DNA of 64,000 nt, from IMG/VR virus record IMGVR_UViG_3300035181_001867, positions 1-64,000 of that record. One strand, given 5' to 3'. The DNA is from a virus. The position numbers and the translations under genes are program-made. Of this stretch, positions 359 through 18,721 are shown in pieces. The first letter of the stretch is position 1. Each line of letters starts with the position of its first letter. The notes under the pieces were generated by a model that had not been told where the DNA came from, did no database searches, and saw only the letters and a program-made list of their open reading frames with translations.

Positions 359-979
359 ATGAAATTGCGCGACTTATTCGAAGCAATGGATTTATACAAA
401 TATCATTCAAACCCAGAGAAGTTACATGGATATGATAAAAAACACATAGCTACGCCTGAGATGGCTTTTAGAGCATTAAAAGGTGGAAAATTAAACGCAC
501 AACAGAAAAAAGAAGCAGAGTCTGTTGTTGCAACAGATCCACAGTGGGCTTATTGGTATGCTCATTATGTCATTAAGGGAAGATGGCCTAAAGCGGAACC
601 TGTTATTGCAAAAGATCTACTGTGGGTTCATGCGTATGCTCGTGATGTCATCAAAGGAAGATGGCCTGAAGCAGAACCTGCTATTGCAAAAAAAGCATAT
701 TGGGCTTATGCGTATGCTCTCAATGTCATCAAAGGAAGGTTTCCTAAAGGAGAACCTGCTATTGCAAAAGATCCAGAGTATGCTTGTGGGTATGCTCGTT
801 ATGTCATTAAAGGAAGATGGCCTGAAGCAGAACCTGCTATTGCAAAAAAAGCATATTGGGCTTATGCGTATGCTCGTCATGTCATCAAAGGAAGGTTTCC
901 TAAAGGAGAACCTGCTATTGCAAAAGATCCACAGTGGGCTAACAAATACAACGAATTTATTAAAGGACTTTCAAAATGA
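359..979 (+). CDS. Array paralogue 1 (5 repeats)
   Basis: 206 residues. This is the only member whose start does not overlap a preceding stop: it begins six bases after the upstream TGA, and no strong Shine-Dalgarno is visible. The head has HGYDKKHIATPEMAF. Repeat 2 departs from consensus (DLLWVHAYA). Repeats 3 and 5 both carry KKAYWAYAYA followed by RFPKG, a pairing seen again in paralogue 6, which suggests sequence exchange within the array. It ends NKYNEFIKGLSK. Confidence 0.9.
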   Translation: MKLRDLFEAMDLYKYHSNPEKLHGYDKKHIATPEMAFRALKGGKLNAQQKKEAESVVATDPQWAYWYAHYVIKGRWPKAEPVIAKDLLWVHAYARDVIKGRWPEAEPAIAKKAYWAYAYALNVIKGRFPKGEPAIAKDPEYACGYARYVIKGRWPEAEPAIAKKAYWAYAYARHVIKGRFPKGEPAIAKDPQWANKYNEFIKGLSK

Positions 980-1674
980 AATTACGTGACTTATTTGAAG
1001 CAATGGACTTATACAAATATCACTCGAATCCAGAGACGTTACCTGGATATGATAAAAAGCACATAATTACTCTTGAGATGGCCTATGAGGCACTAAAGAG
1101 TGGAAAACTAAACGCACAACAGAAAAAAGAAGCGGAGTCTGTTATTGCAACAGATCCACGATGGGCTTATAGGTATGCTCGTTATGTCATCAAAGGAAGA
1201 TGGCCTAAAGTAGAACCTGTTATTGCAGAAGATTCAGAGTGGGCTTATAGTTATGCTCGTTATGTCATCAAAGGAAGATGGCCTAAAGCAGAACCTGTTA
1301 TTGCAAAAGATCCAGAGTGGGCTTGTTGGTATGCTCATCATGTCATTAAAGGAAGATGGACTAAAGCAGAACCTGTTATTGCAAAAGATCCAGAATGGGC
1401 TTGGTTGTATGCTCGTCATGTCATTAAAGGAAGATGGCCTGAAGGAGAACCTGCTATTGTAAAAGATCTACAGTCGGCTTCATATTATGCTTATTATGTC
1501 ATTAAAGAAAGATTTCCTGAAGCAGAACCTGCTATTGCAAAAGATCCAAAGTGGGCTTATGTGTATGCTCGTCATGTCATTAAAGGAAGATGGCCTGAAG
1601 GAGAACCTGCTATTGCAAAAGATCCAGAATGGGCTAACAAATACAACGAATTCATCAAAGGACTTTCGAAATGA
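976..1674 (+). CDS. Array paralogue 2 (6 repeats)
   Basis: 232 residues. The head carries ETLPGYDKKHI in place of the usual EKLHGYDKKHM, a variant shared only with paralogue 11, and ITLEMAY in place of ATPEMAY. Repeats are almost all of the RWP type, with one RWTKA and one ERFPEA unit. Repeat 2 starts AEDSEW, a rare change of the basic K of AKDP. It starts at ATGA over the stop of paralogue 1. Confidence 0.9.
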   Translation: MKLRDLFEAMDLYKYHSNPETLPGYDKKHIITLEMAYEALKSGKLNAQQKKEAESVIATDPRWAYRYARYVIKGRWPKVEPVIAEDSEWAYSYARYVIKGRWPKAEPVIAKDPEWACWYAHHVIKGRWTKAEPVIAKDPEWAWLYARHVIKGRWPEGEPAIVKDLQSASYYAYYVIKERFPEAEPAIAKDPKWAYVYARHVIKGRWPEGEPAIAKDPEWANKYNEFIKGLSK

Positions 1675-2525
1675 AACTACGCGACTTATTCGAAGCAATG
1701 GATTTATACAAATATCACTCGAATCCAAAAAAATTGCATGGGTTTGATAAAAAACACATGGCTACTCCTGAGATGGCTTTTGAAGCATTAAAAGGTGGAA
1801 AATTAAACGCACAACAGAGAAAAGAAGCAGAATCTGTTGTTGCAACAGATCCAGAGTTGGTTTACATTTATGCTCGTGATGTCATCAAAGGAAGATGGCC
1901 TGAAGGAGAATCTGTCTTTGCAAAAGTTCCAGAGTGGGCTTATAGGTATGCTCGTTATGTCATCAAAGGAAGATGGCCTAAAACAGAACCTGTTATTGCA
2001 AAAGATCCAAAGTGGGCTTATATTTATGCTCGTGATGTCATCAAGGGAAGATGGCCTAAAGCAGAACCTGTTATTGCAAAAGATCCACGGATGGCTTATA
2101 TGTACGCTCACGATGTCGTCGAAGGAAGATGGCCTGAAGGAGAACCTGCTATTGTAAAAGATCTAGAGTGGGCTTATGAGTATGCTTGTTATGTCATCAA
2201 AGGAAGATGGCCTGGAGCAGAACCTGCTATTGCAAAAGATCCACGGTGGGCTTTACATTATGCTCGTTCTGTAATTAAAGGAAGATGGACTGAAGGAGAA
2301 CCTGCTATTGCAAAAGAGTCAGGGTCAGCATATTGGTATGCTCGTGATGTCATCAAAGGAAGATTTCCTGAAGGAGAACCTGTTATTGCAAAACATCCAG
2401 AGTATGCTTATTGGTATGCTCGTGATGTCATCAAAGGAAGATTTCCTGAAGGAGAACCTGTTATTGCAAAACATCCAGAGTATGCTAAATATTATAAACA
2501 ATACATCAAAGGAATTTCAAAATGA
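1671..2525 (+). CDS. Array paralogue 3 (8 repeats)
   Basis: 284 residues. The head has HGFDKKHM and AFEALKGGKLN. The region at 2331-2486 consists of two identical 78-base copies carrying HPEYAYWYA-type units, the mark of a recent in-frame duplication. It ends KYYKQYIKGISK, a tail type shared with paralogue 16 (which has KELSK). Confidence 0.9.
   Translation: MKLRDLFEAMDLYKYHSNPKKLHGFDKKHMATPEMAFEALKGGKLNAQQRKEAESVVATDPELVYIYARDVIKGRWPEGESVFAKVPEWAYRYARYVIKGRWPKTEPVIAKDPKWAYIYARDVIKGRWPKAEPVIAKDPRMAYMYAHDVVEGRWPEGEPAIVKDLEWAYEYACYVIKGRWPGAEPAIAKDPRWALHYARSVIKGRWTEGEPAIAKESGSAYWYARDVIKGRFPEGEPVIAKHPEYAYWYARDVIKGRFPEGEPVIAKHPEYAKYYKQYIKGISK
2331..2486 (+). repeat. Two identical 78-base units in tandem
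   Basis: Copies at 2331-2408 and 2409-2486 match base for base by eye, so the array gained a unit here recently without breaking the frame. Confidence 0.85.
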
Positions 2526-3298
2526 AACTACGTGACTTATTCGAAGCGATGGATTTATACAAATATCATTCAAACCCAGAAAAATTGCATGGGTTTGATA
2601 AAAAGCACATGGCTACGCCTGAGATGGCTTTTAAAGCACTAAAGAGTAGAAAATTAAACGCACAACAAAAGAAAGAAGCAGAATCTGTTATTGTAACAGA
2701 TCCAGAGTATGCTCATTGGTATGCTCGTTCTGTCATCAAAAGAAGATGGCCTGAAGCAGAACCTGTTATTGCAAAAGATCCAGAGTTGGCTTATTGGTAT
2801 GCTCGCGATGCCATCAAAGGAAGATGGCCTGAAGCAGAACCTGTTATTGCAAAAGATCCACGGTTGGCTTATTGGTATGCTCGTGATGTCATCAAAGGAA
2901 GATGGCCTAAAGGAGAACCTGCTATTGCAACAGGTCCACAGTGGGCTTATGAGTATGCTCGTAATATCATCAAAGGAAGATGGCCTAAAGGAGAACCTGC
3001 TATTGCAAAAGATCCAGATTGGGCTTATGGTTATGCTCGTGATGTCATCAAAGGAAGATGGTCTGAAGGAGAACCTGTTATTGCAAAAAAAGCAGATTGG
3101 GCTTTATACTATGCTCGTTCTGTCATTAAAGGAAGATGGCCTGAAGGAGAACCTGCTATTGCAAAAGATCCACGGTGGGCTTATGAGTATGCTCGTGATG
3201 TCATCAAAGGAAGATTTCCTGAAGCAGAACCTGTTATTGCAAAAGACCCAACATATGCTAAACAGTATAACCAATTCATCAAAGGAATTTCAAAATGA
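2522..3298 (+). CDS. Array paralogue 4 (7 repeats)
   Basis: 258 residues. The head has AFKALKSRKLN, with R where nearly all siblings have G. The first unit starts VTDPEYAHWYA and contains IKRRWPEA. All units are of the W type (RWP or RWS) except the last, which is RFPEA. It ends DPTYAKQYNQFIKGISK, a tail that looks like a hybrid of the PTYAKRYKQ and KYNEF tails used elsewhere. Confidence 0.9.
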   Translation: MKLRDLFEAMDLYKYHSNPEKLHGFDKKHMATPEMAFKALKSRKLNAQQKKEAESVIVTDPEYAHWYARSVIKRRWPEAEPVIAKDPELAYWYARDAIKGRWPEAEPVIAKDPRLAYWYARDVIKGRWPKGEPAIATGPQWAYEYARNIIKGRWPKGEPAIAKDPDWAYGYARDVIKGRWSEGEPVIAKKADWALYYARSVIKGRWPEGEPAIAKDPRWAYEYARDVIKGRFPEAEPVIAKDPTYAKQYNQFIKGISK

Positions 3299-4068
3299 AA
3301 TTACGTGACTTATTTGAAGCAATGGATTTATACAAATACCACTCAAATCCAGAAAAATTGCATGGATATGATAAAAAACACATGGCTACGCCTGAGATGG
3401 CCTATGGGGCACTAGAGAGTGGAAAACTGAATGCACAACAAAAGAAAGAAGCAGAATCTGTTGTTGCAACAGATCCACGGTGGGCTTATGAGTATGCTTG
3501 TAATGTCATCAAAGGAAGATGGCCTGAAGCAGAACCTGTTATTGCAAAAGATCCAAAGTGGGCTTATGAGTATCATTATGTCATCAAAGGAAGATGGCCT
3601 GAAGGAGAACCTGCTATTGCAAAAGATCCAAAGTATGCTTATTGGTATGCTCGTGGTGTCATCAAAGGAAGATGGCCTGAAGGAGAACCTGCTATTGCAA
3701 AAAATCCACAGTGGGCTTATGAGTATGCTGAAGATGTCATTAAAGAAAGATTTCCTAAAGGAGAATATGTCTTTGCAAAAGATCCAGAGTTGGCTTATTT
3801 GTATGCTCATAATGTTATCAAAGGAAGGTTTCCTAAAGGAGAACCTGCTATTGCAAAAGTTCCAGAGTATGCTTATGCGTATGCTCGTTATGTCATCAAA
3901 GGAAGATGGCATGAAGCAGAACCTGTTATTGCAAAAAATCCAGAGTTGGCTTTTTTGTATGTTCGTGATGTCATCAAAGGAAGATGGCCTGAAGGAGAAC
4001 CTGCTATTGCAAAAGATCCACAGTGGGCTAAAAAATACAACGAATTCATCAAAGGACTTTCGAAATGA
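3295..4068 (+). CDS. Array paralogue 5 (7 repeats, one a residue short)
   Basis: 257 residues, the only intact member off the 26-residue ladder. Repeat 2 reads WAYEYHYVIKG, lacking one codon against the sibling pattern WAYEYAHYVIKG, so a single-codon deletion (GCT) is likely. The head has AYGALESGKLN. Units mix RWPEG, ERFPKG and RWHEA; the fourth leads into an unusual GEYVFAKDPE junction. Confidence 0.9.
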   Translation: MKLRDLFEAMDLYKYHSNPEKLHGYDKKHMATPEMAYGALESGKLNAQQKKEAESVVATDPRWAYEYACNVIKGRWPEAEPVIAKDPKWAYEYHYVIKGRWPEGEPAIAKDPKYAYWYARGVIKGRWPEGEPAIAKNPQWAYEYAEDVIKERFPKGEYVFAKDPELAYLYAHNVIKGRFPKGEPAIAKVPEYAYAYARYVIKGRWHEAEPVIAKNPELAFLYVRDVIKGRWPEGEPAIAKDPQWAKKYNEFIKGLSK

Positions 4069-5153
4069 AACTACGTGACTTATTCGAAGCAATGGATTTA
4101 TACAAATACCACTCGAATCCAGAAAAATTGCATGGGTTTGATAAAAAACACATGGCTACTCCTGAGATGGCCTATGAGGCACTAAAGAGTGGAAAATTAA
4201 ATGCACAACAAAAGAAAGAAGCAGAATCTGTTGTTGCAACAGATACAACGTGGGCTTATAGGTATGCTCGTAATGTCATCAAAGGAAGATGGCCTAAAGC
4301 AGAATCTGTCATTGCAAAAGTTCCAGAGTTGGCTTATGAGTATGCTACAGATGTCATCAAAGGAAGGTTTACTAAAGGAGAACCTGTTATTGCAAAAGAT
4401 CCAAAGTGGGCTTATGCGTATGCTCGTAATTTCATCAAAGGAAGATGGCCTGAAGGAGAACCCGCTATTGCAAAAAAAGCAGATTGGGCTTATACGTATG
4501 CTCATGATTTCATTAAAGGAAGGTTTCCTAAAGGAGAACCTGCTATTGCAAAAGATCCACATTGGGCTTGTGAGTATGCTCGTTATGTCATCAAAGGAAG
4601 ATGGCCTGAAGTAGAACATGTTATTGCAAAAGATCCAGGTTGGGCTTATATGTATGCTCGTGATTTCATTAAAGGAAGATGGCCTGAAGGAGAACCTGCT
4701 ATTGCAAAAAAAGCATATTGGGCTTATGCGTATGCTCTCAATGTCATCAAAGGAAGGTTTCCTAAAGGAGAACCTGTTATTGCAAAAGATCCAGAGTTGG
4801 CTTATGAGTATGCTCTCAATGTCATCAAAGGAAGGTTTCCTAAAGGAGAACCTGTTATTGCAAAAGATCCACAGTGGGCTTGTGTGTATGCTCATTATGT
4901 CATCAAAGGAAGATGGCCTGAAGGAGAACCTGTTATTGCAAAAAACCCACGGTGGGCTTATGAGTATGCTCGTTATGTCATCAAAGGAAGATGGTCTGAA
5001 GGAGAACCTGCTATTGTAAAACATCCAGAGTATGCTTATTGGTATGCTCGTCATGTCATTAAAGGAAGATGGCCTGAAGCAGAATCTGTTATTGCAAAAG
5101 ATCCAAGATGGACTAAAAAATACAACGAATTCATCAAAGGACTTTCGAAATGA
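4065..5153 (+). CDS. Array paralogue 6 (11 repeats, longest)
   Basis: 362 residues, with eleven units before the tail. Units 7 and 8 both carry YALNVIKGRFPKGEPVI, and unit 7 (KKAYWAYAYA) is shared with paralogue 1. Several units have DFIKG instead of DVIKG. Changes such as WAYEYATDV and RFTKG are unique to this copy. The tail is RWTKKYNEFIKGLSK. Its length shows how far the unit number can grow without loss of frame. Confidence 0.9.
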   Translation: MKLRDLFEAMDLYKYHSNPEKLHGFDKKHMATPEMAYEALKSGKLNAQQKKEAESVVATDTTWAYRYARNVIKGRWPKAESVIAKVPELAYEYATDVIKGRFTKGEPVIAKDPKWAYAYARNFIKGRWPEGEPAIAKKADWAYTYAHDFIKGRFPKGEPAIAKDPHWACEYARYVIKGRWPEVEHVIAKDPGWAYMYARDFIKGRWPEGEPAIAKKAYWAYAYALNVIKGRFPKGEPVIAKDPELAYEYALNVIKGRFPKGEPVIAKDPQWACVYAHYVIKGRWPEGEPVIAKNPRWAYEYARYVIKGRWSEGEPAIVKHPEYAYWYARHVIKGRWPEAESVIAKDPRWTKKYNEFIKGLSK

Positions 5154-6004
5154 AACTACGTGACTTATTCGAAGCAATGGATTTATACAAATATCACTCG
5201 AATCCAGAGAAATTGCATGGGTTTGATAAAAAACACATGGCTACTCCTGAGATGGCTTTTGAAGCATTAAAAGGTGGAAAATTAAATGCACAACAGAAAA
5301 AAGAAGCAGAATCTGTTGTTGCAAAAGATCCAAGATGGGCTTATGAGTACGCTCGTGATTTCATCAAAGGAAGGTTTCCTAAAGGAGAACCTGTTATTGC
5401 AAAAGATCTAGAGTTGGCTTATTGGTATGCTCGTGATGTCATCAAAGGAAGATGGCCTGAAGGAGAATCTGTCTTTGCAAAAGTTCCAGAGTCGGCTTAT
5501 TGGTACGCTCGTGATGTCATCAAAGAAAGATGGCCTGAAGCAGAACCTGCTATTGCAAAAGTTCCAGGGTATGCTTATAGTTATGCTCGTGATGTCATTA
5601 AAGGAAGATGGCCTAAAGGAGAACCTGCTATTGCAACAGATCCACAGTGGGCTTCATATTACGCTCATTTTGTCATCAAAGAAAGATTTCCTAAAGGAGA
5701 ACCTGCTATTGCAAAAGATCCAGAACGGGCTTTTTTGTATGCTCGTGATGTCATCAAAGGAAGATGGCCTGAAGCAGAACCTGCTATTGCAAAAAAAGCA
5801 GATTGGGCTTATACGTATGCTCGTGATTTCATTAAAGGAAGATGGCCTGAAGCAGAACCTGTTATTGCAAAAGATCCACGTTGGGCTTATTGGTATGCTC
5901 ATAATGTCATCAGGGGAAGATTTCCTGAAGCAGAATCTGTTATTGCAAAACATCCAAAGTGGGCTAAAAAATACAACGAATTTATTAAAGGAATTTCAAA
6001 ATGA
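5150..6004 (+). CDS. Array paralogue 7 (8 repeats)
   Basis: 284 residues. The first unit begins AKDPRW rather than ATDPRW. Units 3 and 4 begin AKVPES and AKVPGY, the V-P variant of K-D-P. The protein mixes W and F units, with one DVIRGRFPEA. It ends KKYNEFIKGISK, so the ribosome-binding stretch for the next gene is AAAGGAATTTCAAA. Confidence 0.9.
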   Translation: MKLRDLFEAMDLYKYHSNPEKLHGFDKKHMATPEMAFEALKGGKLNAQQKKEAESVVAKDPRWAYEYARDFIKGRFPKGEPVIAKDLELAYWYARDVIKGRWPEGESVFAKVPESAYWYARDVIKERWPEAEPAIAKVPGYAYSYARDVIKGRWPKGEPAIATDPQWASYYAHFVIKERFPKGEPAIAKDPERAFLYARDVIKGRWPEAEPAIAKKADWAYTYARDFIKGRWPEAEPVIAKDPRWAYWYAHNVIRGRFPEAESVIAKHPKWAKKYNEFIKGISK

Positions 6005-6621
6005 AATTACGTGACTTATTCGAAGCAATGGATTTATACAAATATCATTCAAACCCAGAAAAATTGCATGGGTTTGATAAAAAGCACATGGCTACTCCTG
6101 AGATGGCTTATGAGGCACTAGAGAGTGGAAAACTGAATGCACAACAGAAAAAAGAAGCAGAGTCTGTTGTTGCAACAGATCCACAGTGGGCTTATGAGTA
6201 TGCTCAACGAGTCATCAAAGAAAGATTTCCTAAAGGAGAATCTATCATTGCAAAACACCCAGAGTATGCTTATTGGTATGCTCATGGTGTCATTAAAGGA
6301 AGATGGCCTGAAGGAGAACCTGCTATTGCAAAAGATCCACAATGGGCTTCATATTATGCTCGTTATGTCATCGAAGAAAGATTTCCTAAAGGAGAATCTG
6401 TCATTGCAAAACACCCAGAGTATGCTTATGGGTATGCTCGTGATGTCATCAAAGGAAGATGGCCTGAAGGAGAACCTGCTATTGCAAAAGCTCCACGGTG
6501 GGCTTCATATTATGCTCGTCATGTCATCAAAGGAAGATGGCCTGAAGGAGAACCTGCTATTGCAAAAAACCTACAGTCGACTAAAAATTACAACGAATTT
6601 ATTAAAGGACTTTCGAAATGA
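6001..6621 (+). CDS. Array paralogue 8 (5 repeats)
   Basis: 206 residues. The head has AYEALESGKLN. Unit 1 has YAQRVIKERFPKGESII, and F-type ERFPKG units alternate with RWPEG units. The tail starts NLQSTKNYNEF, in which the usual W-A pair is S-T. Confidence 0.9.
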   Translation: MKLRDLFEAMDLYKYHSNPEKLHGFDKKHMATPEMAYEALESGKLNAQQKKEAESVVATDPQWAYEYAQRVIKERFPKGESIIAKHPEYAYWYAHGVIKGRWPEGEPAIAKDPQWASYYARYVIEERFPKGESVIAKHPEYAYGYARDVIKGRWPEGEPAIAKAPRWASYYARHVIKGRWPEGEPAIAKNLQSTKNYNEFIKGLSK

Positions 6622-7238
6622 AACTACGTGACTTATTCGAAGCAATGAATTTATACAAATACCACTCAAATCCAGAGAAGTTACATGGATATGATAAAAG
6701 GCACATGGTTTCTCCTGAGATGGCCTATGAGGCACTAAAGAGTGGAAAATTAAACGCACAACAGAAAAAAGAAGCAGAGTCTGTTATTGCAAAAGTTCCA
6801 GAGTTGGCTCATTATTATGCTCGTGATGTCACCGAAAGAAGATTTCCTAAAGGAGAACCTGCTATTGCAAAAAATCCACAGTGGGCTTGTTTGTATGCTC
6901 GTGATGTCATCAAAGGAAGATGGCCTGAAGCAGAACCTGTTATTGCAAAAGATCCAGGTTGGGCTTCATATTATGCTCGTGATGTCATCAAAGGAAGATT
7001 TTCTGAAGCAGAATCTGTTATTGCAAAATATCCAAAGTCGGCTTATTGGTATACTCATGATGTCATCAAAGGAAGATGGCCTAAAGCAGAACCTGTTATT
7101 GCAAAAGATCCAGAGTTTGCTTATGGGTATGCTCGTGATGTCATCAAAGGAAGATTTCCTGAAGCAGAACCTGTTATTGCAAAAGATCCAACATATGCTA
7201 AACGGTATAAACAAGACATCAAAGGACTTTCGAAATGA
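6618..7238 (+). CDS. Array paralogue 9 (5 repeats)
   Basis: 206 residues. The head reads LFEAMNLYKYH (N for D, as in paralogues 16 and 18), then KRHMVSPEMAY, unique in the array. Unit 1 has DVTERRFPKG. The tail is DPTYAKRYKQDIKGLSK, a distinct tail type also found in paralogues 18, 24 and the reconstructed 25. Confidence 0.9.
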   Translation: MKLRDLFEAMNLYKYHSNPEKLHGYDKRHMVSPEMAYEALKSGKLNAQQKKEAESVIAKVPELAHYYARDVTERRFPKGEPAIAKNPQWACLYARDVIKGRWPEAEPVIAKDPGWASYYARDVIKGRFSEAESVIAKYPKSAYWYTHDVIKGRWPKAEPVIAKDPEFAYGYARDVIKGRFPEAEPVIAKDPTYAKRYKQDIKGLSK

Positions 7239-7931
7239 AACTACGTGATCTATTCGAAGCAATGGATTTATACAAATACCACTCGAATCCAGAGAAGTTA
7301 CATGGATATGATAAAAAACACATGGCTACTCCACAGATGGCATATGAGGCACTAAAGAGTGGAAAACTGAATGCACAACAGAAAAAAGAAGCAGAATCTG
7401 TTGTTGCAAAAGATCCAGAATGGGCTTATGAGTATGCTCATTATGTCATTAAAGGAAGATGGCCTAAAGCAGAATCTGTTATTGCAAAAGATCCAGAATG
7501 GGCTTATTGGTATGCTCGTTATGTCATCAAAGGAAGATGGCCTGAAGTAGAACCTGTTATTGCAAAAGATCCACATTGGGCTTATAATTATGCTCGCGAT
7601 TTCATTAAAGGAAGATGGCCTGAAGGAGAACCTGCTATTGCAAAAGATCCACGGTGGGCTTATGAGTATGCTTATAATGTCATCAAAGGAAGATTTCCTG
7701 AAGCAGAATCTGTTATTGCAAAAAAAGCAAATTGGGCTTATATATGTTGATGATATCATCAAAGGAAAATGGCCTGAAGGAGAACCGGCTATTGCAAAAA
7801 ACCCACAGTATGCTTATTGGTATGCTCGTGATTTCATCGAAGGAAGATGGCCTGAAGGAGAACCTGCTATTGTAAAAGATCTAAGATGGGCTAAAAAATA
7901 CAACGAATTCATCAAAGGACTTTCAAAATGA
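7235..7931 (+). pseudogene. Array paralogue 10, frameshifted (6 repeats if restored)
   Basis: Translation from 7235 runs in the family pattern for 171 residues and stops at TGA 7748-7750. The family pattern then continues in another frame (VDDIIKGKWPEG onward) to a normal tail and TGA at 7931. The span is 697 bases; a 232-residue sibling has 699. The junction GGGCTTATATATGTTGATG matches paralogue 18 near 12668 if two G bases were lost after GGGCTTATA, so a 2-base deletion is likely. Decay, a switchable state or a sequencing error are all possible. Ribosomes that stop at 7750 would be 177 bases short of the next start, so translational coupling to paralogue 11 would be lost. Confidence 0.85.
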
Positions 7932-9165: not shown

Positions 9166-9704
9166 AATTACGTGACTTACTCGAAGCAATGGATTTATAC
9201 AAATATCACTCGAATCCAGAGAAATTGCATGGGTTTGATAAAAAGCACATGGCTACTCCACAGATGGCATATCAGGCACTAGAGAGCGGAAAACTGAATG
9301 CACAACAAAAGAAAGAAGCAGAATCTGTTATTGTAACAGATCCAGAGTTTGCTTATTGGTATGCTCGTTCTGTCATCCAAAGAAGATGGCCTAAGGCAGA
9401 ACCTGTTATTGCAACAGATCCACAGTGGGCTTATAGTTATGCTCGTGATGTCATCAAAGGAAGATTTCCTAAAGGAGAACCTGCTATTGCAAAAGATCCT
9501 GAATGGGCTTATTGGTATGCTTGTAGTGTCATCAAAGAAAGATTTCCTAAAGGAGAACCTGCTATTGCAAAAGATCCAGAATGGGCTTGTTGGTATGCTC
9601 GTTCTGTCATCAAAGGAAGATTTCCTGAAGCAGAACCTGCTATTGCAAAACATCCAAAATGGACCAAAAAATACAAAGAATTTATTAAAGGAATTTCAAA
9701 ATGA
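9162..9704 (+). CDS. Array paralogue 13 (4 repeats)
   Basis: 180 residues, the shortest size class. The leader is MKLRDLLEA (L for F), shared with paralogues 14, 15 and 26. The head has TPQMAYQALESGKLN. Unit 1 begins VTDPEF and has VIQRRWPKA; the rest are RFPKG or RFPEA. The tail KYKEFIKGISK has K for N. Confidence 0.9.
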   Translation: MKLRDLLEAMDLYKYHSNPEKLHGFDKKHMATPQMAYQALESGKLNAQQKKEAESVIVTDPEFAYWYARSVIQRRWPKAEPVIATDPQWAYSYARDVIKGRFPKGEPAIAKDPEWAYWYACSVIKERFPKGEPAIAKDPEWACWYARSVIKGRFPEAEPAIAKHPKWTKKYKEFIKGISK

Positions 9705-10399: not shown

Positions 10400-11094
10400 A
10401 ATTGCGTGATCTACTCGAAGCAATGGATTTATACAAATACCACTCGAATCCAGAGAAGTTACATGGATATGATAAAAAACACATGGCTACTCCTGAGATG
10501 GCCTATGAGGCACTAGAGAGTGGAAAACTGAATGCACAACAAAAGAAAGAAGCAGAATCTGTTGTTGCAACAGATCCAAAGTTTGCTTCATATTATGCTC
10601 GTGATGTCATCAAAGGAAGATTTCCTGAAGGAGAACCTGTTGTTGCAACAGATCCAAAGTTTGCTTCATATTATGCTCGTGATGTCATCAAAGGAAGCTT
10701 TCCTGAAGCAGAGTCTGTTATTGCAAAAGATCCACGGTGGGCTTCATATTATGCTCGTGATGTCATCAAAGGAAGATTTCCTAAAGGAGAACCTGTTATT
10801 GCAAAAGATCCAGAGTATGCTTATTGGTATGCTCATTCTGTCATCAAAGGAAGATTTCCTGAAGCAGAACCTGTTATTGCAAAAGATCCACGGTGGGCTT
10901 ATAGTTATGCTCGTGATGTCATTAAAGAAAGATTTCCCAAAGGAGAACCTGCTATTGCAAAAGATCCAGATTATGCTTATGGGTATGCTCGTGATGTCAT
11001 CAAGGAAAGATTTCCTGAAGCAGAATCTGTCATTGCAAAAGATCCACACCTGGCTAAAAATTACAAAGAATTCATCAAAGGACTTTCAAAATGA
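10396..11094 (+). CDS. Array paralogue 15 (6 repeats, all F type)
   Basis: 232 residues with the MKLRDLLEA leader. The head-repeat junction itself is doubled: VVATDPKFASYYA occurs twice, 26 residues apart, as expected after unequal crossing-over at unit 1. All units are RFP or SFP type (GSFPEAES is unique). The tail is DPHLAKNYKEFIKGLSK. Confidence 0.9.
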   Translation: MKLRDLLEAMDLYKYHSNPEKLHGYDKKHMATPEMAYEALESGKLNAQQKKEAESVVATDPKFASYYARDVIKGRFPEGEPVVATDPKFASYYARDVIKGSFPEAESVIAKDPRWASYYARDVIKGRFPKGEPVIAKDPEYAYWYAHSVIKGRFPEAEPVIAKDPRWAYSYARDVIKERFPKGEPAIAKDPDYAYGYARDVIKERFPEAESVIAKDPHLAKNYKEFIKGLSK

Positions 11095-11789
11095 AATTAC
11101 GTGACTTATTCGAAGCGATGAACTTATACAAATACCACTCAAATCCAGAGAAATTGCATGGATATGATAAAAAGCACATGGCTACGCCTGAGATGGCATA
11201 TGAGGCACTAAAGAGTGGAAAACTAAATGCACAACAGAAAAAAGAAGCAGAGTCTGTTGTTGCAACAGATACAAAGTGGGCTTATTGGTATGTCAGTAAT
11301 GTCATCAAAGAAAGATTTCCTAAAGGAGAACCTGCTATTGCAAAAGATCCAGAATGGGCTTTTTTGTATGCTCGTGATTTCATCAAAGGAAGATTTCCTG
11401 AAGCAGAATCTGTTATTGCAAAAGATCCACGGATGGCTTATATGTACGCTCATGATATCATCAAAGAAAGATTTCCTAAAGGAGAACCTGCTGTTGCAAA
11501 AAAAGCAGATTGGGCTTATGAGTATGCTCGTTATATCATTAAAGAAAGATTTCCTAAAGGAGAATCTGTCATTGCAAAAGATCCAGATTATGCTTTTTGG
11601 TATGCTCGTGATGTCATCAAAGGAAGATGGCCTGAAGGAGAACCTGCTATTGCAAAAAATCCACGGACGGCTTATATGTACGCTCATGATGTCATCAAAG
11701 AAAGATTTCCTAAAGGAGAATCTGTTATTGCAAAAGATCCAGAGTATGCTAAATATTATAAACAATACATCAAAGAACTTTCAAAATGA
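11091..11789 (+). CDS. Array paralogue 16 (6 repeats)
   Basis: 232 residues. The head has LFEAMNLYKYH. Unit 1 holds YVSNVIKERFPKG. Units 3 and 6 share AYMYAHD. It ends KYYKQYIKELSK: the G of KGLSK is E here, so the ribosome-binding stretch for the next gene becomes AAAGAA instead of AAAGGA. Initiation of paralogue 17 may therefore be weaker or depend more on coupling. Confidence 0.9.
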   Translation: MKLRDLFEAMNLYKYHSNPEKLHGYDKKHMATPEMAYEALKSGKLNAQQKKEAESVVATDTKWAYWYVSNVIKERFPKGEPAIAKDPEWAFLYARDFIKGRFPEAESVIAKDPRMAYMYAHDIIKERFPKGEPAVAKKADWAYEYARYIIKERFPKGESVIAKDPDYAFWYARDVIKGRWPEGEPAIAKNPRTAYMYAHDVIKERFPKGESVIAKDPEYAKYYKQYIKELSK

Positions 11790-12484
11790 AACTACGTGAT
11801 CTATTCGAAGCGATGGATTTATACAAATATCACTCGAATCCAGAGAAATTGCATGGATATGATAAAAAGCACATGGCTACTCCACAGATGGCATATGAGG
11901 CACTAAAGAGTGGAAAATTAAATACACCACAGAAAAAAGAAGCAGAATCTGTTGTTGCAACAGATATAAAGTGGGCTTATTGGTATGCTCGTGATGTCAT
12001 TGAAGGAAGATTTCCTAAAGCGGAACCTGTTATTACAAAAGATCCAGAGTATGCTTATTGGTATGCTCATGATGTCATTAAGGGAAGGTGGCCTAAAGCG
12101 GAACCTGTTATTGCAAAAGATCCAGAGTATGCTTATTGGTATGCTCATGATGTCATTAAGGGAAGGTGGCCTAAAGCGGAACCTGTTATTGCAAAAGATC
12201 CAGAATGGGCTTATGAGTATGTTCGTAATGTCATCAAAGGAAGATGGCCTGAAGCAGAACCTGTTATTGCAAAAGATCCAGAGTATGCTTATTGGTATGC
12301 TCGTGATGTCATCGAGGAAAGATTTCCTAAGGGAGAACCTGCTGTTGCAAAAAATCCACGGACGGCTTATTGGTATGCTCATGATGTCATCAACGGAAGA
12401 TTTCCTAAAGGAGAACCTGCTATTGTAAAAGATCCAAGGTGGGCTAAAAAATACAACGAATTCATCAAAGGACTTTCGAAATGA
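11786..12484 (+). CDS. Array paralogue 17 (6 repeats)
   Basis: 232 residues. The head has KLNTPQKKEAE. It holds two identical 78-base units at 12036-12191 (EYAYWYAHDVIKGRWPKA). Unit 6 has DVINGRFPKG. Its predicted ribosome-binding site is the weakened AAAGAA left by the changed tail of paralogue 16. Confidence 0.9.
   Translation: MKLRDLFEAMDLYKYHSNPEKLHGYDKKHMATPQMAYEALKSGKLNTPQKKEAESVVATDIKWAYWYARDVIEGRFPKAEPVITKDPEYAYWYAHDVIKGRWPKAEPVIAKDPEYAYWYAHDVIKGRWPKAEPVIAKDPEWAYEYVRNVIKGRWPEAEPVIAKDPEYAYWYARDVIEERFPKGEPAVAKNPRTAYWYAHDVINGRFPKGEPAIVKDPRWAKKYNEFIKGLSK
12036..12191 (+). repeat. Two identical 78-base units in tandem
   Basis: Copies at 12036-12113 and 12114-12191 match base for base by eye, including the uncommon codon choices AAGGGAAGG and AAAGCGGAA. 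The duplication is recent and in frame. Confidence 0.85.
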
Positions 12485-13101
12485 AACTACGCGACTTATT
12501 CGAAGCGATGAATTTATACAAATATCATTCAAACCCAGAAAAATTGCATGGGTTTGATAAAAAACACATGGCTACGCCTGAGATGGCTTTTGGAGCATTA
12601 AAAGGTGGAAAATTAAATGCACAACAGAAAAAAGAAGCAGAGTCTGTTATCGCAAAAGATCCACGTTGGGCTTATAGGTATGTTGATGATATCATCAAAG
12701 GAAGATGGCCTGAAGCAGAATCTGTTATTGCAAAAGATCCAGAATGGGCTTTTTTGTATGCTCGTGATTTCATCAAAGGAAGATTTCCTGAAGCAGAATC
12801 TGTTATTGCAAAAAATCCACGGACGGCTTATATGTACGCTCATGATGTCATTAAAGGAAGATTTCCTGAAGCAGAATCTGTTATTGTAAAAGATCCAGAA
12901 TGGGCTTGGTTGTATGCTCGCGATGTCATCAAAGGAAGATTTCCTGAAGCAGAATCTGTTATTGCAAAAGATCCACGTTGGGCTTATTGGTATGCTAGTG
13001 ATGTCATCAAAGGAAGATGGATTGAAGGAGAACCTGCTATTGCAAAAGACCCAACATATGCTAAACGGTATAAACAAGACATCAAAGGACTTTCAAAATG
13101 A
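12481..13101 (+). CDS. Array paralogue 18 (5 repeats)
   Basis: 206 residues. The head has LFEAMNLYKYH and AFGALKGGKLN. Unit 1 begins AKDPRWAYRYVDDIIKG, the sequence that best matches the broken junction of paralogue 10. The last unit has GRWIEGEPAI, unique in the array. The tail is DPTYAKRYKQDIKGLSK. Confidence 0.9.
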   Translation: MKLRDLFEAMNLYKYHSNPEKLHGFDKKHMATPEMAFGALKGGKLNAQQKKEAESVIAKDPRWAYRYVDDIIKGRWPEAESVIAKDPEWAFLYARDFIKGRFPEAESVIAKNPRTAYMYAHDVIKGRFPEAESVIVKDPEWAWLYARDVIKGRFPEAESVIAKDPRWAYWYASDVIKGRWIEGEPAIAKDPTYAKRYKQDIKGLSK

Positions 13102-13718
13102 AATTACGTGATCTATTCGAAGCAATGGATTTATACAAATATCATTCAAATCCAGAGAAGTTACATGGATATGATAAAAAACACATGGCTACTCCTGAGA
13201 TGGCTTATGAGGCACTAAAGAGTGGAAAATTAAATGCACAACAAAAGAAAGAAGCAGAATCTGTTGTTGCAACAGATCCACGGTGGGCTTATGAGTACGC
13301 CCAACAAGTCATCGAAAGAAGATTTCCTGAAGCAGAACCTGTTATTGCAAAAAAAGCAGATTGGGCTTGTGTGTATGCTCAACAAGTCATCAAAGGAAGA
13401 TGGCCTGAAGCAGAACCTGTTATTGCAAAAAAAGCAGATTGGGCTTATGAATATGCTCGCTCTATCATCCAAGGAAGATGGCCTAAGGCAGAACCTGCTA
13501 TTGTAAAAGACCCAAGGTGGGCTTATTGGTATGCTCGTTATGTCATCAAAGGAAGATGGACTGAAGCAGAACCTGTTATTGCAAAAGATCCAGGTTGGGC
13601 TTATGAGTATGCTCGTTATGTCATCAAAGGAAGATGGCCTGAAGGAGAACCTGTTATTGCAAAAGATCCAAAGTGGGCTAAAAAATACAACGAATTCATC
13701 AAAGGACTTTCAAAATGA
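13098..13718 (+). CDS. Array paralogue 19 (5 repeats)
   Basis: 206 residues. Units 2 and 3 both begin AKKADWA, with YAQQVI in units 1 and 2, and unit 3 continues ARSIIQGRWPKA. YAQQVI units also occur in paralogues 12, 21 and 22, so unit types move between genes. Tail KKYNEFIKGLSK. Confidence 0.9.
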   Translation: MKLRDLFEAMDLYKYHSNPEKLHGYDKKHMATPEMAYEALKSGKLNAQQKKEAESVVATDPRWAYEYAQQVIERRFPEAEPVIAKKADWACVYAQQVIKGRWPEAEPVIAKKADWAYEYARSIIQGRWPKAEPAIVKDPRWAYWYARYVIKGRWTEAEPVIAKDPGWAYEYARYVIKGRWPEGEPVIAKDPKWAKKYNEFIKGLSK

Positions 13719-14335
13719 AACTACGTGACTTATTCGAAGCGATGGATTTATACAAATACCACTCAAATCCAGAGAAGTTACATGGATATGATAAAAAGCA
13801 CATGGCTACGCCTGAGATGGCATATCAGGCACTAGAGAGTGGAAAACTGAATGCGCAACAGAAAAAAGAAGCAGAGTCTGTTGTTGCAACAGATCCAAAG
13901 TTTGCTTGTTGGTATGCTCGTTCTATCATCCAAGGAAGATGGCCTGAGGCAGAACCTGTTATTGCAAAAAACCCACAGTGGGCTTATTGGTATGCTGATG
14001 ATATCATTGAAGGAAGATGGCCTAAAGCAGAACCTGTTATTGCAAAACATCCAGAGTGGGCCACATATTATGCTCATAATGTCATCAAAGGAAGATGGCC
14101 TGAAGCAGAACCTGCTATTGCAAAAGATCCAGAATGGGCTTATGAGTATGCTGATGATAGCATCAAAGGAAGATGGCCTGAAGGAGAACCTGCTATTGCA
14201 AAAGATCCACAGTATGCTTATTGGTATGCTCGTGATGTCATCAAAGGAAGATGGCCTGAAGCAGAACCTGCTATTGCAAAAAATCCAGAGTGGGCTAAAA
14301 AATACAACGAATTTATTAAAGGACTTTCGAAATGA
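13715..14335 (+). CDS. Array paralogue 20 (5 repeats, all W type)
   Basis: 206 residues. Every unit is of the RWP type, the mirror of paralogues 12 and 15. The head has AYQALESGKLN. Unit 1 has SIIQGRWPEA; unit 4 has YADDSIKGRWPEG, where the usual V/I before I is S. Tail KKYNEFIKGLSK. Confidence 0.9.
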   Translation: MKLRDLFEAMDLYKYHSNPEKLHGYDKKHMATPEMAYQALESGKLNAQQKKEAESVVATDPKFACWYARSIIQGRWPEAEPVIAKNPQWAYWYADDIIEGRWPKAEPVIAKHPEWATYYAHNVIKGRWPEAEPAIAKDPEWAYEYADDSIKGRWPEGEPAIAKDPQYAYWYARDVIKGRWPEAEPAIAKNPEWAKKYNEFIKGLSK

Positions 14336-14952
14336 AATTGCGTGATCTATTCGAAGCAATGGATTTATACAAATATCATTCAAACCCAGAAAAATTGCAT
14401 GGATATGATAAAAAACACATGGCCACGCCTGAGATGGCTTTTGAAGCATTAAAGAGTGGAAAATTAAATGCACAACAGAAAAAAGAAGCAGAGTCTGTTG
14501 TTGCAAAAGATCCACGGTGGGCTTATAGGTATGCTCAACAAGTCATCGAAAGAAGATTTACTGAAGCAGAACCTGTTATTGCAAAAAAAGCAGATTGGGC
14601 TTATGTGTATGCTCAACAAGTCATCAAAGGAAGATTTCCTGAAGCAGAATCTGTTATTGCAAAACATCCAGAGTGGGCTTCATATTATGCTCGTGATGTC
14701 ATCAAAGGAAGATTTCCTGAAGCAGAATCTGTTATTGCAAAAGATCCACGTTGGGCTTATTGGTATGCTAGTGATGTCATCAAAGGAAGATGGACTGAAG
14801 GAGAACCTGCTATTGCAAGAGATCCACAGTGGGCTTCATATTATGCTCGTTCTGTCATCAAAGGAAGATTTCCTGAAGCAGAACCTGTTATTGCAAAAGT
14901 TCCAGAATGGGCTAAGCCATACAACGAATTCATCAAAGGACTTTCAAAATGA
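14332..14952 (+). CDS. Array paralogue 21 (5 repeats)
   Basis: 206 residues. Units 1 and 2 have YAQQVIERRFTEA and YAQQVIKGRFPEA. Unit 5 begins ARDPQWASYYA with R for K. The tail begins AKVPEWAKPYNEF, the AKPYNEF type also used by 11, 23 and 27. Confidence 0.9.
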   Translation: MKLRDLFEAMDLYKYHSNPEKLHGYDKKHMATPEMAFEALKSGKLNAQQKKEAESVVAKDPRWAYRYAQQVIERRFTEAEPVIAKKADWAYVYAQQVIKGRFPEAESVIAKHPEWASYYARDVIKGRFPEAESVIAKDPRWAYWYASDVIKGRWTEGEPAIARDPQWASYYARSVIKGRFPEAEPVIAKVPEWAKPYNEFIKGLSK

Positions 14953-15569
14953 AATTACGTGACTTATTCGAAGCAATGGATTTATACAAATACCACTCAA
15001 ATCCAGAGAAGTTACATGGATATGATAAAAAACACATGGCTACTCCTGAGATGGCTTTTGAAGCACTAAAGAGTGGAAAATTAAACGCACAACAGAAAAA
15101 AGAAGCAGAGTCTGTTATTGCAAAAGATCCACGTTGGGCTTATAATTATGCTGATGATATCATCAAAGGAAGATTTCCTGAAGCAGAACCTGCTATTGCA
15201 AAAGATCCAGAGTATGCTTATTGGTATACTCATGATGTCACTAAAGGAAGATGGCCTGAAGGAGAACCTGCTATTGCAAAAGATCCAAAGTGGGCTTGTT
15301 TGTATGCTCGTAATGTCATCAAGGAAAGATTTCCTAAAGGAGAACCTGCTATTGCAAAAAAAGCAGATTGGGCTTATGTGTATGCTCAACAAGTCATCGA
15401 AAGAAGATTTCCTAAAGGAGAACCTGCTATTGCAAAAGATCCACAGTGGGCTTATGGGTATGCTCGTGATGTCATTAAAAGAAGATTTCCTGAAGCAGAA
15501 CCTGTTATTGCAAAAGATCCAGAATGGGCTAAAAAATACAAAGAATTTGTTAAAGGACTTTCGAAATGA
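14949..15569 (+). CDS. Array paralogue 22 (5 repeats)
   Basis: 206 residues. Unit 1 has YADDIIKGRFPEA; unit 2 has YTHDVTKGRWPEG, shared with paralogue 24; unit 4 has YAQQVIERRFPKG. The tail KYKEFVKGLSK has V for I but keeps the AAAGGA stretch. Confidence 0.9.
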   Translation: MKLRDLFEAMDLYKYHSNPEKLHGYDKKHMATPEMAFEALKSGKLNAQQKKEAESVIAKDPRWAYNYADDIIKGRFPEAEPAIAKDPEYAYWYTHDVTKGRWPEGEPAIAKDPKWACLYARNVIKERFPKGEPAIAKKADWAYVYAQQVIERRFPKGEPAIAKDPQWAYGYARDVIKRRFPEAEPVIAKDPEWAKKYKEFVKGLSK

Positions 15570-16108
15570 AATTACGTGATCTGTTCGAAGCAATGGATTT
15601 ATATAAATATCATTCAAATCCAGAGAAGTTACATGGATATGATAAAAAGCACATGGCTACGCCTGAGATGGCTTTTGAAGCATTAAAAGGTGAAAAATTA
15701 AACGCACAACAGAAAAAAGAAGCAGAGTCTGTTGTTGCAACAGATCCAAGATGGGCTTGTTTGTATGCTCGTAATGTCATCAAAGAAAGATTTCCTAAAG
15801 GAGAATCTGTCATTGCAAAAGATACACGTTGGGCTTGTTTGTATGCTCGTTATGTCATCAAAGGAAGATGGCCTGAAGGAGAACCTGCTATTGCAAAAAA
15901 AGCAGATTGGGCTTATGAGTATGCTCGTAATGTCATCAAAGGAAGATTTCCTGAAGCAGAATCTGTTATTGCAAAAGATCCAGAGTGGGCTTATGGGTAT
16001 GCTCGTGATGTCATCAAAGAAAGATTTCCTGAAGCAGAACCTGTTATTGCAAAACATCCAGAGTGGGCTAAACCATACAACGAATTTATTAAAGGACTTT
16101 CAAAATGA
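15566..16108 (+). CDS. Array paralogue 23 (4 repeats)
   Basis: 180 residues. The head has AFEALKGEKLN, with E for G. Units 1 and 2 both have W-A-C-L-Y-A, and unit 2 begins AKDTRW. Tail HPEWAKPYNEFIKGLSK. Confidence 0.9.
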   Translation: MKLRDLFEAMDLYKYHSNPEKLHGYDKKHMATPEMAFEALKGEKLNAQQKKEAESVVATDPRWACLYARNVIKERFPKGESVIAKDTRWACLYARYVIKGRWPEGEPAIAKKADWAYEYARNVIKGRFPEAESVIAKDPEWAYGYARDVIKERFPEAEPVIAKHPEWAKPYNEFIKGLSK

Positions 16109-16803
16109 AATTACGTGACTTATTCGAAGCAATGGACTTATACAAATACCACTCAAATCCAGAGAAATTGCATGGATATGATAAAAAGCACATGGCTACG
16201 CCTGAGATGGCTTTTGAATCATTAAAAGGTGGAAAATTAAACGCACAACAGAAAAAAGAAGCAGAGTCTGTTGTTGCAACAGATCCACGGTGGGCTTATG
16301 AGTACGCTCGTGATGCCATCAAAGGAAGATGGCCTGAAGGAGAACCTGCTATTGCAAAAGATCCAAAGTATGCTTATTGGTATACTCATGATGTCACTAA
16401 AGGAAGATGGCCTGAAGGAGAACCTGCTATTGCAAAACATCCAGAGTATGCTTATTGGTATACTCATGATGTCATTAAAGGAAGATGGCCTGAAGGAGAA
16501 CCTGCTATTGCAAAACATCCAGAATGGGCTTATGAGTATGCTCGTGGTGCCATCAAAGGAAGATGGCCTGAAGGAGAACCTGCTATTGCAAAAGATCCAC
16601 AGTATGCTTATTGGTATGCTCGTAATGTCATCAAAGGAAGATTTCCTGAAGCAGAATCTGTTATTGCAAAAGATCCACAGTGGGCTTCGTATTATGCTCG
16701 TAATGTCATCAAAGGAAGATTTCCTGAAGCAGAACCTGTTATTGCAAAAGATCCGACATATGCTAAACGGTATAAACAAGACATCAAAGGACTTTCGAAA
16801 TGA
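16105..16803 (+). CDS. Array paralogue 24 (6 repeats)
   Basis: 232 residues. The head has AFESLKGGKLN. The first four units are RWPEG and the last two RFPEA, so the protein is split into a W half and an F half. Units 2 and 3 share YWYTHDV. Tail DPTYAKRYKQDIKGLSK. Confidence 0.9.
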   Translation: MKLRDLFEAMDLYKYHSNPEKLHGYDKKHMATPEMAFESLKGGKLNAQQKKEAESVVATDPRWAYEYARDAIKGRWPEGEPAIAKDPKYAYWYTHDVTKGRWPEGEPAIAKHPEYAYWYTHDVIKGRWPEGEPAIAKHPEWAYEYARGAIKGRWPEGEPAIAKDPQYAYWYARNVIKGRFPEAESVIAKDPQWASYYARNVIKGRFPEAEPVIAKDPTYAKRYKQDIKGLSK

Positions 16804-17498
16804 AATTACGCGACTTGTTTGAAGCAATGGATTTATACAAATATCACTCGAATCCAGAAAAATTGCATGGGTTTGATAAAAAACACATGGCTACTCCTGA
16901 GATGGCTTTTTTTGCATTAAAAGGTGGAAAATTAAACACACAACAGAAAAAAGAAGCAGAGTCTGTTGTTGCAACAGATCCACAGTGGGCTTATAGTTAT
17001 GCTCGTAATGTCATCAAAGGAAGATGGTCTGAAGCAGAACCTGCTATTGCAAAAGACCCAGAATGGGCTTTTTTGTATGCTCGTGATGTCATCAAAGGAA
17101 GATGGTCTGAAGCAGAACCTGCTATTGCAAAAGACCCAGAATGGGCTTTTTTGTATGCTCGTGATGTCATCAAAGGAAGATGGTTTGAAGGAGAACCTGC
17201 TATTGCAAAAGATCCACGGTGGGCTTATTGGTATGCTAGTAATGTTATCAAAGAAAGATTTCCTAAAGGAGAACCTGCTATTGCAAAAGATCCAGAATGG
17301 GCTTTTTTGTATGCTCGTGATGCCGTCAAAGGAAGATGGCCTGAAGCAGAACCTGCTATTGCAAAAGACCCACGTTGGACTTATAATTATGCTCGTTCTG
17401 TCATCAAAGGAAGATGGCCTGAATAAGAACCTGCTATTGCAAAAGATCCAACATATGCTAAACGGTATAAACAAGACATCAAAGGACTTTCGAAATGA
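16800..17498 (+). pseudogene. Array paralogue 25, internal stop (6 repeats if restored)
   Basis: The frame starts normally (head AFFALKGGKLN, with F-F) and stops at TAA 17424-17426 after 208 residues, in the last unit: GAA-TAA-GAA where siblings have GAA-GCA-GAA or GAA-GGA-GAA. The family pattern continues in the same frame to TGA 17498, giving 232 residues if read through. Two base changes separate TAA from either sibling codon. Coupling to paralogue 26 at 17495 would be lost, since ribosomes stop about 70 bases early. It contains the identical pair of units at 17011-17166. Confidence 0.85.
17011..17166 (+). repeat. Two identical 78-base units in tandem
   Basis: Copies at 17011-17088 and 17089-17166 match base for base by eye and encode the RWSEA unit followed by DPEWAFLYA. 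The next unit at 17167 diverges after GGAAGATGGT. Confidence 0.85.
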
Positions 17499-18115
17499 AA
17501 CTACGTGACTTACTCGAAGCAATGGATTTATACAAATATCATTCAAACCCAGAAAAATTGCATGGGTTTGATAAAAAGCACATGGCTACGCCTGAGATGG
17601 CATATGAGGCACTGGAGAGTGGAAAACTGAATGCACAACAAAAGAAAGAAGCAGAATCTGTTGTTGCAACAGACACAAAGTGGGCTTATGAGTATGCTCA
17701 TGATGTCATCAAGGGAAGATGGCCTAAAGGAGAATCTGTCATTGCAAAAGATCCACGTTTGGCTTATATTTATGCTCGTGATGTCATCAAGGAAAGATTT
17801 CCTGAAGCAGAACCTACTGTTGCAAAAGATCCACGTTTGGCTTATTGGTATGCTCGTGAGGTCATCAAAGGAAGGTTTCCTAAAGGAGAACCTGCTATTG
17901 CAAAAGATCCAGAGTTGGCTTATGGGTATGCTCGTGATGTCATCAAAGGAAGATGGCCTGAAGCAGAATCTGTCATTGCAAAAGATCCAAAGTGGGCTTA
18001 TGGGTATGCTCGTGATGTCATCAAAGAAAGATGGCCTGAAGGAGAACCTGCTATTGCAAAAGATCCAAAGTGGGCTAAAAATTACAACGAATTCATCAAA
18101 GGACTTTCGAAATGA
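17495..18115 (+). CDS. Array paralogue 26 (5 repeats)
   Basis: 206 residues with the MKLRDLLEA leader. Three units begin with leucine-type faces (PRLAY, PRLAY, PELAY) rather than W. Unit 2 ends EPTVAKDP, and unit 3 has YAREVIKG. Tail KWAKNYNEFIKGLSK. It follows the disrupted paralogue 25. Confidence 0.9.
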   Translation: MKLRDLLEAMDLYKYHSNPEKLHGFDKKHMATPEMAYEALESGKLNAQQKKEAESVVATDTKWAYEYAHDVIKGRWPKGESVIAKDPRLAYIYARDVIKERFPEAEPTVAKDPRLAYWYAREVIKGRFPKGEPAIAKDPELAYGYARDVIKGRWPEAESVIAKDPKWAYGYARDVIKERWPEGEPAIAKDPKWAKNYNEFIKGLSK

Positions 18116-18654
18116 AATTACGCGACTTGTTTGAAGCAATGGATTTATACAAATATCATTCAAACCCAGAAAAATTGCATGGGTTTGATAAAAAGCACAT
18201 GGCTACTCCACAGATGGCATATGAGGCACTAAAAAGTGGAAAATTAAACGCACAACAGAAAAAAGAAGCAGAATCTGTTGTTGCAACAGATCCACAGTGG
18301 GCTTATAGTTATGATCGTGATGTCATCAAGGGAAAGTGGCCTGAAGGAGAACCTGCTATTGCAAAAGATCCAGAATGGGCTTTTTTGTATGCTCGTGATG
18401 TCATTGAAGGAAGATGGCCTGAAGGAGAACCTGCTATTGCAAAAGATCCACGTTGGGCTTATTGGTATGCTCGTGATGTCATCAAAGGAAGATTTCCTAA
18501 AGCAGAACATGTTATTACAAAAGATCCACGGTGGGCTTATTGGTATGCTCGTTATATCATCAAGGGAAGATGGCCTGAAGCAGAACCTGCTATTGCAAAA
18601 GATACAGAACGGGCTAAACCATACAACGAATTTATTAAAGGACTTTCGAAATGA
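18112..18654 (+). CDS. Array paralogue 27 (4 repeats, last)
   Basis: 180 residues. Unit 1 has YDRDVIKGKWPEG, with D for A in the YA pair. Unit 3 ends AEHVITKDP. The tail is DTERAKPYNEFIKGLSK, with R for W. Its stop overlaps the ATG of a 19-residue mini-gene rather than another full copy. Confidence 0.9.
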   Translation: MKLRDLFEAMDLYKYHSNPEKLHGFDKKHMATPQMAYEALKSGKLNAQQKKEAESVVATDPQWAYSYDRDVIKGKWPEGEPAIAKDPEWAFLYARDVIEGRWPEGEPAIAKDPRWAYWYARDVIKGRFPKAEHVITKDPRWAYWYARYIIKGRWPEAEPAIAKDTERAKPYNEFIKGLSK

Positions 18655-18710: not shown

Positions 18711-18721
18711 ACATTAAAATG

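Follow-up and report, generated by a model that had tools for sequence, protein, structure and literature searches.

Organization of the repeat gene array

The DNA analyzed here, referred to as the window, is the first 64,000 nt of an 84,887-bp linear virus record from IMG/VR (IMGVR_UViG_3300035181_001867; G000). Listing of its open reading frames (ORFs), combined with a script, places 27 head-to-tail repeat protein genes on the + strand between positions 359 and 18654, all starting with MKLRDL and preceded by the truncated end of another gene, here called WCT (Table 1). A sequence-only reading of the window had proposed such an array of 27 genes on one strand over 18 kb, with lengths of 57 + 26n + 19 residues (n from 4 to 11). 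The layout is confirmed, and the length rule holds exactly in 24 of the 27 genes; gene 5 is a single residue short, and genes 10 and 25 are broken, by a frameshift in unit 5 and a TAA nonsense codon in unit 6, respectively. The mixed combinations of head and tail blocks in that reading are likewise found: in addition to the LLEA leaders and ETLPG heads of Table 1, KRYKQD tails end genes 9, 18, 24, and 25, and the blocks are unlinked (see below).

Every neighboring gene pair is joined by a 4-nt ATGA start/stop overlap, except after the two broken members. Furthermore, in 26 of the 27 tails, AAAGGA lies about 8 nt 5' of the next ATG, within the codons of the conserved KGLSK tail, so that the tail also serves as the ribosome-binding site of the next gene. 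The array would be one polycistronic operon of coupled genes. Its start lies off the record; a T4-type late-promoter octamer (TATAAATA) at 15602 falls within an array gene.

The array holds 152 repeat units with a mean nucleotide identity of 82%, and the second units of genes 16 and 18 are the sole identical pair. The longest exact repeat within the 18.3 kb is 100 bp, and fewer than 1% of 80-mers recur, so that 150-bp reads could resolve the array. Together, these figures make assembly stutter and chance unlikely, and we regard the array as real. Could it instead be a chimera assembled from many phage variants? The record is linear and metagenomic, it starts inside the WCT gene, and a near-identical record (G001) diverges from it at the array edge. 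However, the shortness of the exact repeats, the ATGA coupling throughout, and the independent smaller arrays in other contigs make a chimera highly improbable.

From window position 18762 on, G001 (72,685 bp) and the record share 98.7% identity; on the other side of this point, G001 carries unrelated DNA, indicating that the array edge is a variable junction between near-identical phages. A search for the repeat found no match anywhere in G001, which is itself a fragment.

Table 1. Features of the array and its borders (window coordinates)
Feature	Position	Strand	Description
C-terminal part of WCT partner gene (KWCT...KFQFHY...)	2..352	+	5' end off record; homology to standalone WCT genes; PHROG 17056/28193
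Repeat gene 1	359..979	+	206 aa, 5 units
Repeat gene 2	976..1674	+	232 aa, 6 units, ETLPG head
Repeat gene 3	1671..2525	+	284 aa, 8 units
Repeat gene 4	2522..3298	+	258 aa, 7 units
Repeat gene 5	3295..4068	+	257 aa, 7 units, one of 25 residues
Repeat gene 6	4065..5153	+	362 aa, 11 units
Repeat gene 7	5150..6004	+	284 aa, 8 units
Repeat gene 8	6001..6621	+	206 aa, 5 units
Repeat gene 9	6618..7238	+	206 aa, 5 units
Repeat gene 10	7235..7931	+	Frameshifted; 171 aa to 7750, repeats resume in another frame to 7931
Repeat gene 11	7928..8548	+	206 aa, 5 units, ETLPG head
Repeat gene 12	8545..9165	+	206 aa, 5 units
Repeat gene 13	9162..9704	+	180 aa, 4 units, LLEA leader
Repeat gene 14	9701..10399	+	232 aa, 6 units, LLEA leader
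Repeat gene 15	10396..11094	+	232 aa, 6 units, LLEA leader
Repeat gene 16	11091..11789	+	232 aa, 6 units
Repeat gene 17	11786..12484	+	232 aa, 6 units
Repeat gene 18	12481..13101	+	206 aa, 5 units
Repeat gene 19	13098..13718	+	206 aa, 5 units
Repeat gene 20	13715..14335	+	206 aa, 5 units
Repeat gene 21	14332..14952	+	206 aa, 5 units
Repeat gene 22	14949..15569	+	206 aa, 5 units
Repeat gene 23	15566..16108	+	180 aa, 4 units
Repeat gene 24	16105..16803	+	232 aa, 6 units
Repeat gene 25	16800..17498	+	Nonsense codon in unit 6; 208 aa to 17426
Repeat gene 26	17495..18115	+	206 aa, 5 units, LLEA leader
Repeat gene 27	18112..18654	+	180 aa, 4 units
Start of vanished 28th gene (ATGAAACTGC, then unrelated DNA) and breakpoint	18651..18761	+	G001 homology from 18762

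Predicted fold of the repeat

The structure of one member, whose prediction the sequence-only reading had suggested, was modeled with AlphaFold (predicted local distance difference test score, 89.6) as an alpha-alpha solenoid with two helices per 26-residue unit, at positions 4 to 15 and 20 to 26. The array proteins are predicted to be small, mostly basic, spring-like solenoids. From the periodicity of the repeat rather than from coordinates, we infer that helix A presents conserved positions 7, 10/11, and 14/15 on one face and variable positions 5, 9, and 12/13 on the other.

Two short helices per repeat, wound into a superhelix, are reminiscent of the LRV, DUF4116, Sel1, TPR, and HEAT-type alpha solenoids. 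The array unit differs from these in its length of 26 residues and belongs to no Pfam solenoid family; no solenoid model (LRV, TPR, Sel1, HEAT, or DUF4116) matched the repeats in a Pfam scan up to an E value of 1. Nor does it have a confident structural match, since Foldseek returned no solved structure at an E value of ≤0.001, with weak matches only, to LRV, Sel1, and DUF4116 proteins. Other Pfam matches on the repeats (HTH_35, FF, tachylectin, and others) were short and judged spurious; HTH_35, the sole one above the cutoff, covers 19 residues of gene 6. PHROG matches are weak: the profile of PHROG 28193 aligns with gene 6 over 65 residues (E value, 3.6e-6) and matches a few repeat units. 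A literature search found no description of the repeat or of the array.

Recombination and selection within the array

Across the genes, no correlation is seen among the distances of heads, tails, and first and last units (Mantel r of 0.06 between head halves, 0.11 between head and tail, and -0.05 between head and last unit; all P > 0.08). Moreover, adjacent genes are not preferred as the location of a unit's nearest relative (19 versus 16.7 ± 4.6 expected by chance), and there is a modest excess in its own gene or at the same position. Distant genes share near-identical units, such as unit 3 of gene 1 and unit 7 of gene 6 (1 nt apart) or the identical pair mentioned above. Such absence of linkage between blocks is as expected from extensive recombination or gene conversion below the scale of the gene. 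The proposal that recombination makes new repeat combinations is therefore supported by the unlinked blocks and by the near-identical units of distant genes.

Within the unit, per-codon counts show replacement exceeding synonymous change at positions 9 (3.8), 13 (11), 12 (1.7), and 6 (1.9), some of these ratios resting on very low synonymous counts, and positions 7, 10, 15, 18, and 23 are nearly fixed. Concentration of variation at particular codons of a binding surface is reminiscent of the targets of diversity-generating retroelements, but here recombination distributes the variation across 152 units. A retroelement of this type was rejected, as RVT_1 gave no match in G000 or G001, both of which are fragments.

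The array might also be a neutral accordion, grown by unequal recombination and largely selfish or decaying. Three of the 27 members carry a lesion or an odd unit, remnant genes stand at the array end and in its closest syntenic relative (contig L014), and the junction varies between 98.7%-identical genomes. Against this, 25 of the 27 frames are open at a mean unit identity of 82%, AAAGGA is kept in nearly all tails, and the leader and head are under purifying selection (see below). We consider this explanation very unlikely. Gene number, which the sequence-only reading had proposed to compare across related phages, indeed differs, with 3 genes in L014, 6 in L064, and 27 here. That reading also took the array for an arms-race family, a view supported by this variation and by the site-specific excess of replacement change; host defense may be what drives it.

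WCT, a conserved partner of the repeat genes

The ORF at the left end of the record encodes a WCT domain without repeats, truncated by the record start, and matches PHROG 28193 (E value, 1.4e-5). It is 49.6% identical to a standalone WCT gene located between the repeat genes of L014 (10106-10885), 47% to L064:7177-7965, and 43% to L022:5301-6083, both of the latter directly upstream of repeat genes. A standalone WCT gene followed by short-head repeat genes is thus found in L014, L022, and L064 (six genes), as in G000, and in L046 a standalone WCT gene lies 1.4 kb from the repeats. In over a dozen other loci, WCT and the repeats form a single protein. That the two are joined in some phages and neighbors in others points to a functional partnership, with WCT as the conserved partner of the repeat genes. 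PHROG 28193 and 17056, to which no function is assigned, match WCT-type proteins and share the WCT domain with the upstream gene; they have no array. One homologue, EST35_0205 of phage PA5oct, is annotated as "structural protein, ESI-MS/MS" and lies beside the terminase gene. The WCT domain had no confident Foldseek match, and weak proteasome-like structure matches were not used. In Salicola phage SCTP-2 (L091), the repeat of one WCT paralogue is of another kind and about 20 residues long.

Relatives were found through the repeat alignment alone, which retrieved 119 from IMG/VR; 74 loci were kept (at least 74 loci in all). No relatives emerged when IMG/VR was scanned with the whole protein or the head alignment, and a tblastn search of reference phages with the array, short-head, and L013-type genes was also negative. 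Arrays of two to six repeat genes are common among the relatives, which show two main architectures. In one, the repeats come after an N-terminal domain of about 230 residues that contains an invariant WCT motif; in the other, they come after a short head (MNLYxxHxxPExLxxY). The repeat also occurs in seven contigs of metagenome-assembled genomes, which may be viral. Three contigs binned as Lokiarchaeota (L092, L093, and L095), possibly viral as well, carry repeat protein genes of the array's family, some of them in tandem. The WCT partner gene, this wide distribution, the tail-embedded ribosome-binding site, and the conserved leader described below go beyond the sequence-only reading.

A nine-residue leader resembling capsid-targeting sequences

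The array head corresponds to the short-head architecture plus nine extra N-terminal residues, homologous short-head proteins beginning at Met10 of the array head (MNLYNLHSKPESLD). This leader, MKLRDL(F/L)EA, is a separable module in front of the short head. It is present in all 27 array proteins, only residue 7 varying, conservatively (F or L), and codons 3, 4, 5, 6, and 9 vary synonymously. Its ratio of nonsynonymous to synonymous polymorphism (pN/pS) is 0.026, versus 0.109 for the rest of the head. The leader is thus under strong purifying selection as a protein sequence, and its codons change freely at synonymous sites, an argument against a function in the RNA.

Cleavage of T4 capsid-targeting sequences follows the consensus [LI]xE. 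A comparable start, M[KR]x(2-13)[LI]xE, is found in 28 of 32 WCT proteins versus 6.7% (strict pattern) or 9% (loose pattern) of other ORFs, and in L014, MKLHE stands in front of both the WCT gene and the repeat genes. The array proteins are also basic (median isoelectric point [pI], 9.1; 8.7 to 9.6 in 26 of 27). In T4, 10 residues suffice as a capsid-targeting sequence, which is cleaved after Glu, and related T-even phages encode further basic proteins carrying one (PMC9026906). In the way it would work, the array comes closest to the T4 internal head proteins (IPI, IPII, IPIII, and Alt), which likewise have an N-terminal leader of about 10 residues with a terminal Glu cleavage motif and are small, basic, and variable between related phages. 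Moreover, T4-type head genes are present in L014, where gp20, gp21 (S77 prohead protease), gp22, and gp23 lie just upstream of the repeat and WCT genes. The array differs from the T4 proteins in showing no sequence likeness beyond the leader and in comprising 27 tandem paralogues of a modular repeat, whose packaging is putative.

Leader-like N termini were also seen elsewhere. In SCTP-2 (L091:442-13380), several genes, some apparently nonhomologous, have the N terminus MKVKHITQYLFES or a similar one (LFE/LYE), which suggests a common leader. In the window, the protein encoded at 58174-59139 (- strand), behind a late-promoter octamer, starts with MKHIRKLLKETAAAGATTAGGIAG, a leader like those of the capsid-targeting type, in which a possible LKE|T site resembles what follows ILAE in the gp23 of L014.

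A proposed packaged and recombining set of binding proteins

We favor the view, with a probability of roughly one half, that the array is a recombining set of virion-packaged binding proteins working with WCT. The operon would produce a repertoire of small, mostly basic solenoids. Point substitution would diversify their exposed helix A positions, and recombination would bring their units, heads, and tails into new combinations. These proteins would act together with the upstream WCT protein, which is covalently joined to the same repeats in other phages. MKLRDL(F/L)EA would be a capsid-targeting leader drawing them into the prohead core, where a T4 gp21-type protease would cleave after Glu (LFE|A). 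The mature proteins would be ejected with the DNA, and their most likely role would be to bind host targets that vary, for example defense or restriction proteins, as does T4 IPI, an anti-restriction protein (PMC9026906). Coupling, shuffling, the replacement excess, WCT linkage, and leader selection are read from the sequence and the fold from a model; the exposed face, packaging, cleavage, ejection, and target are what we infer.

Several observations weigh against this view. The leader is missing from 36 of 37 short-head relatives by the loose test, so packaging would not be a trait of the whole family. [LI]xE is a short motif, and its match to capsid-targeting sequences is judged by resemblance. 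The sole homologue annotated by mass spectrometry is that of the partner protein, the PA5oct WCT protein, which has no detectable repeats. A close association with head genes holds for some contigs only, most of them short; in contigs of >60 kb the distance ranges from 0.3 to >50 kb, and proximity was rejected as a general rule. Finally, neither the prohead protease (gp21), the scaffold (gp22), nor the main capsid gene was detected in the 84.9 kb of the record, where a gp23 paralogue alone was found.

Alternatively, the proteins, made from the phage genome, might stay in the infected cell and bind proteins of the host or of competitor phages there, as anti-defense or takeover adaptors, the leader serving, for example, in WCT binding or translation. 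Indeed, repeats and arrays are present without the leader in the short-head genes of L029, L033, L035, L064, and others, L013-type heads lack it as well, and in this record the array adjoins MazG-like and clamp genes, not structural genes. However, the protein-level selection on the leader goes against an RNA-level role, the leader resembles those of WCT proteins, and one WCT homologue is annotated as a virion protein. We regard retention in the cell as the main alternative, though a rather unlikely one.

The same leader evidence and the basic pI would also suit proteins that sit inside the head, in the prohead core or inner body, as structural or filler components and in which variation is tolerated rather than selected; T4 IPIII influences head assembly (PMC9026906). 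Neutral tolerance, however, does not predict pN/pS values above 1 at unit positions 9, 13, 12, and 6 next to nearly fixed positions, and 27 distinct genes for one bulk role seem wasteful, making such a role improbable.

Genomic context

The phage is a large tailed phage. Among the T4-type genes of the window are those for baseplate, tail, clamp, and DnaB-like helicase, identified by reading translations, the clamp and head matches coming from searches. The baseplate protein shares 47% identity with its counterpart in jumbo phage XacN1 and 36 to 37% with those of the PA5oct group, and the record therefore probably covers only part of a genome of much greater size. The gp23-like protein (356 residues; L010:1366-2436, record positions ~83365-84435) is possibly a vertex (gp24-like) paralogue, and no protease or scaffold gene lies next to it in G001.

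Late-promoter octamers (TATAAATA) lie 20 to 30 nt upstream of several minus-strand genes (28413, 36142, 59169, and others), with 12 in the window versus 6.2 expected. Four paralogues of about 500 to 550 residues, at 22982-24484 (+), 26159-27679 (-), 47321-48976 (-), and 52118-53752 (+), are scattered among other genes and look like mobile (homing) genes. The first matches a Vsr-like/MTES_1575 endonuclease, and a relative in L014 (7667-9289) has a Mom/GNAT-like C-terminal domain. Two tandem, similar glycine-rich (collagen-like) proteins (L009:14014-14913 and 14933-15817) vary between G000 and G001 (86 to 95%), and an IS200-like Y1 transposase gene lies at L009:16879-17301 (Pfam E value, 1.2e-31). 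A TnpB-like identity for the G001 ORF beside MazG was dropped for lack of a Pfam match, and the ORF is left unnamed.

Implications

The phage particle may carry the array proteins as a mix-and-match set. More tentatively, and with some doubt, we speculate that the phage injects a packaged combinatorial library, a constant WCT protein with up to 27 interchangeable recognition proteins, antibody- or effector-like, against host defenses. If the leader works as it appears to, the T4 internal protein idea would extend from three proteins to dozens, and the array would, if this holds true, offer a natural supply of evolved binders built from 26-residue repeats. Both families, repeat and WCT, occur widely in phage metagenomes, and neither has been assigned a function. 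Since WCT-bearing isolates (PA5oct and relatives) are cultivable, the packaging idea is open to a simple test.

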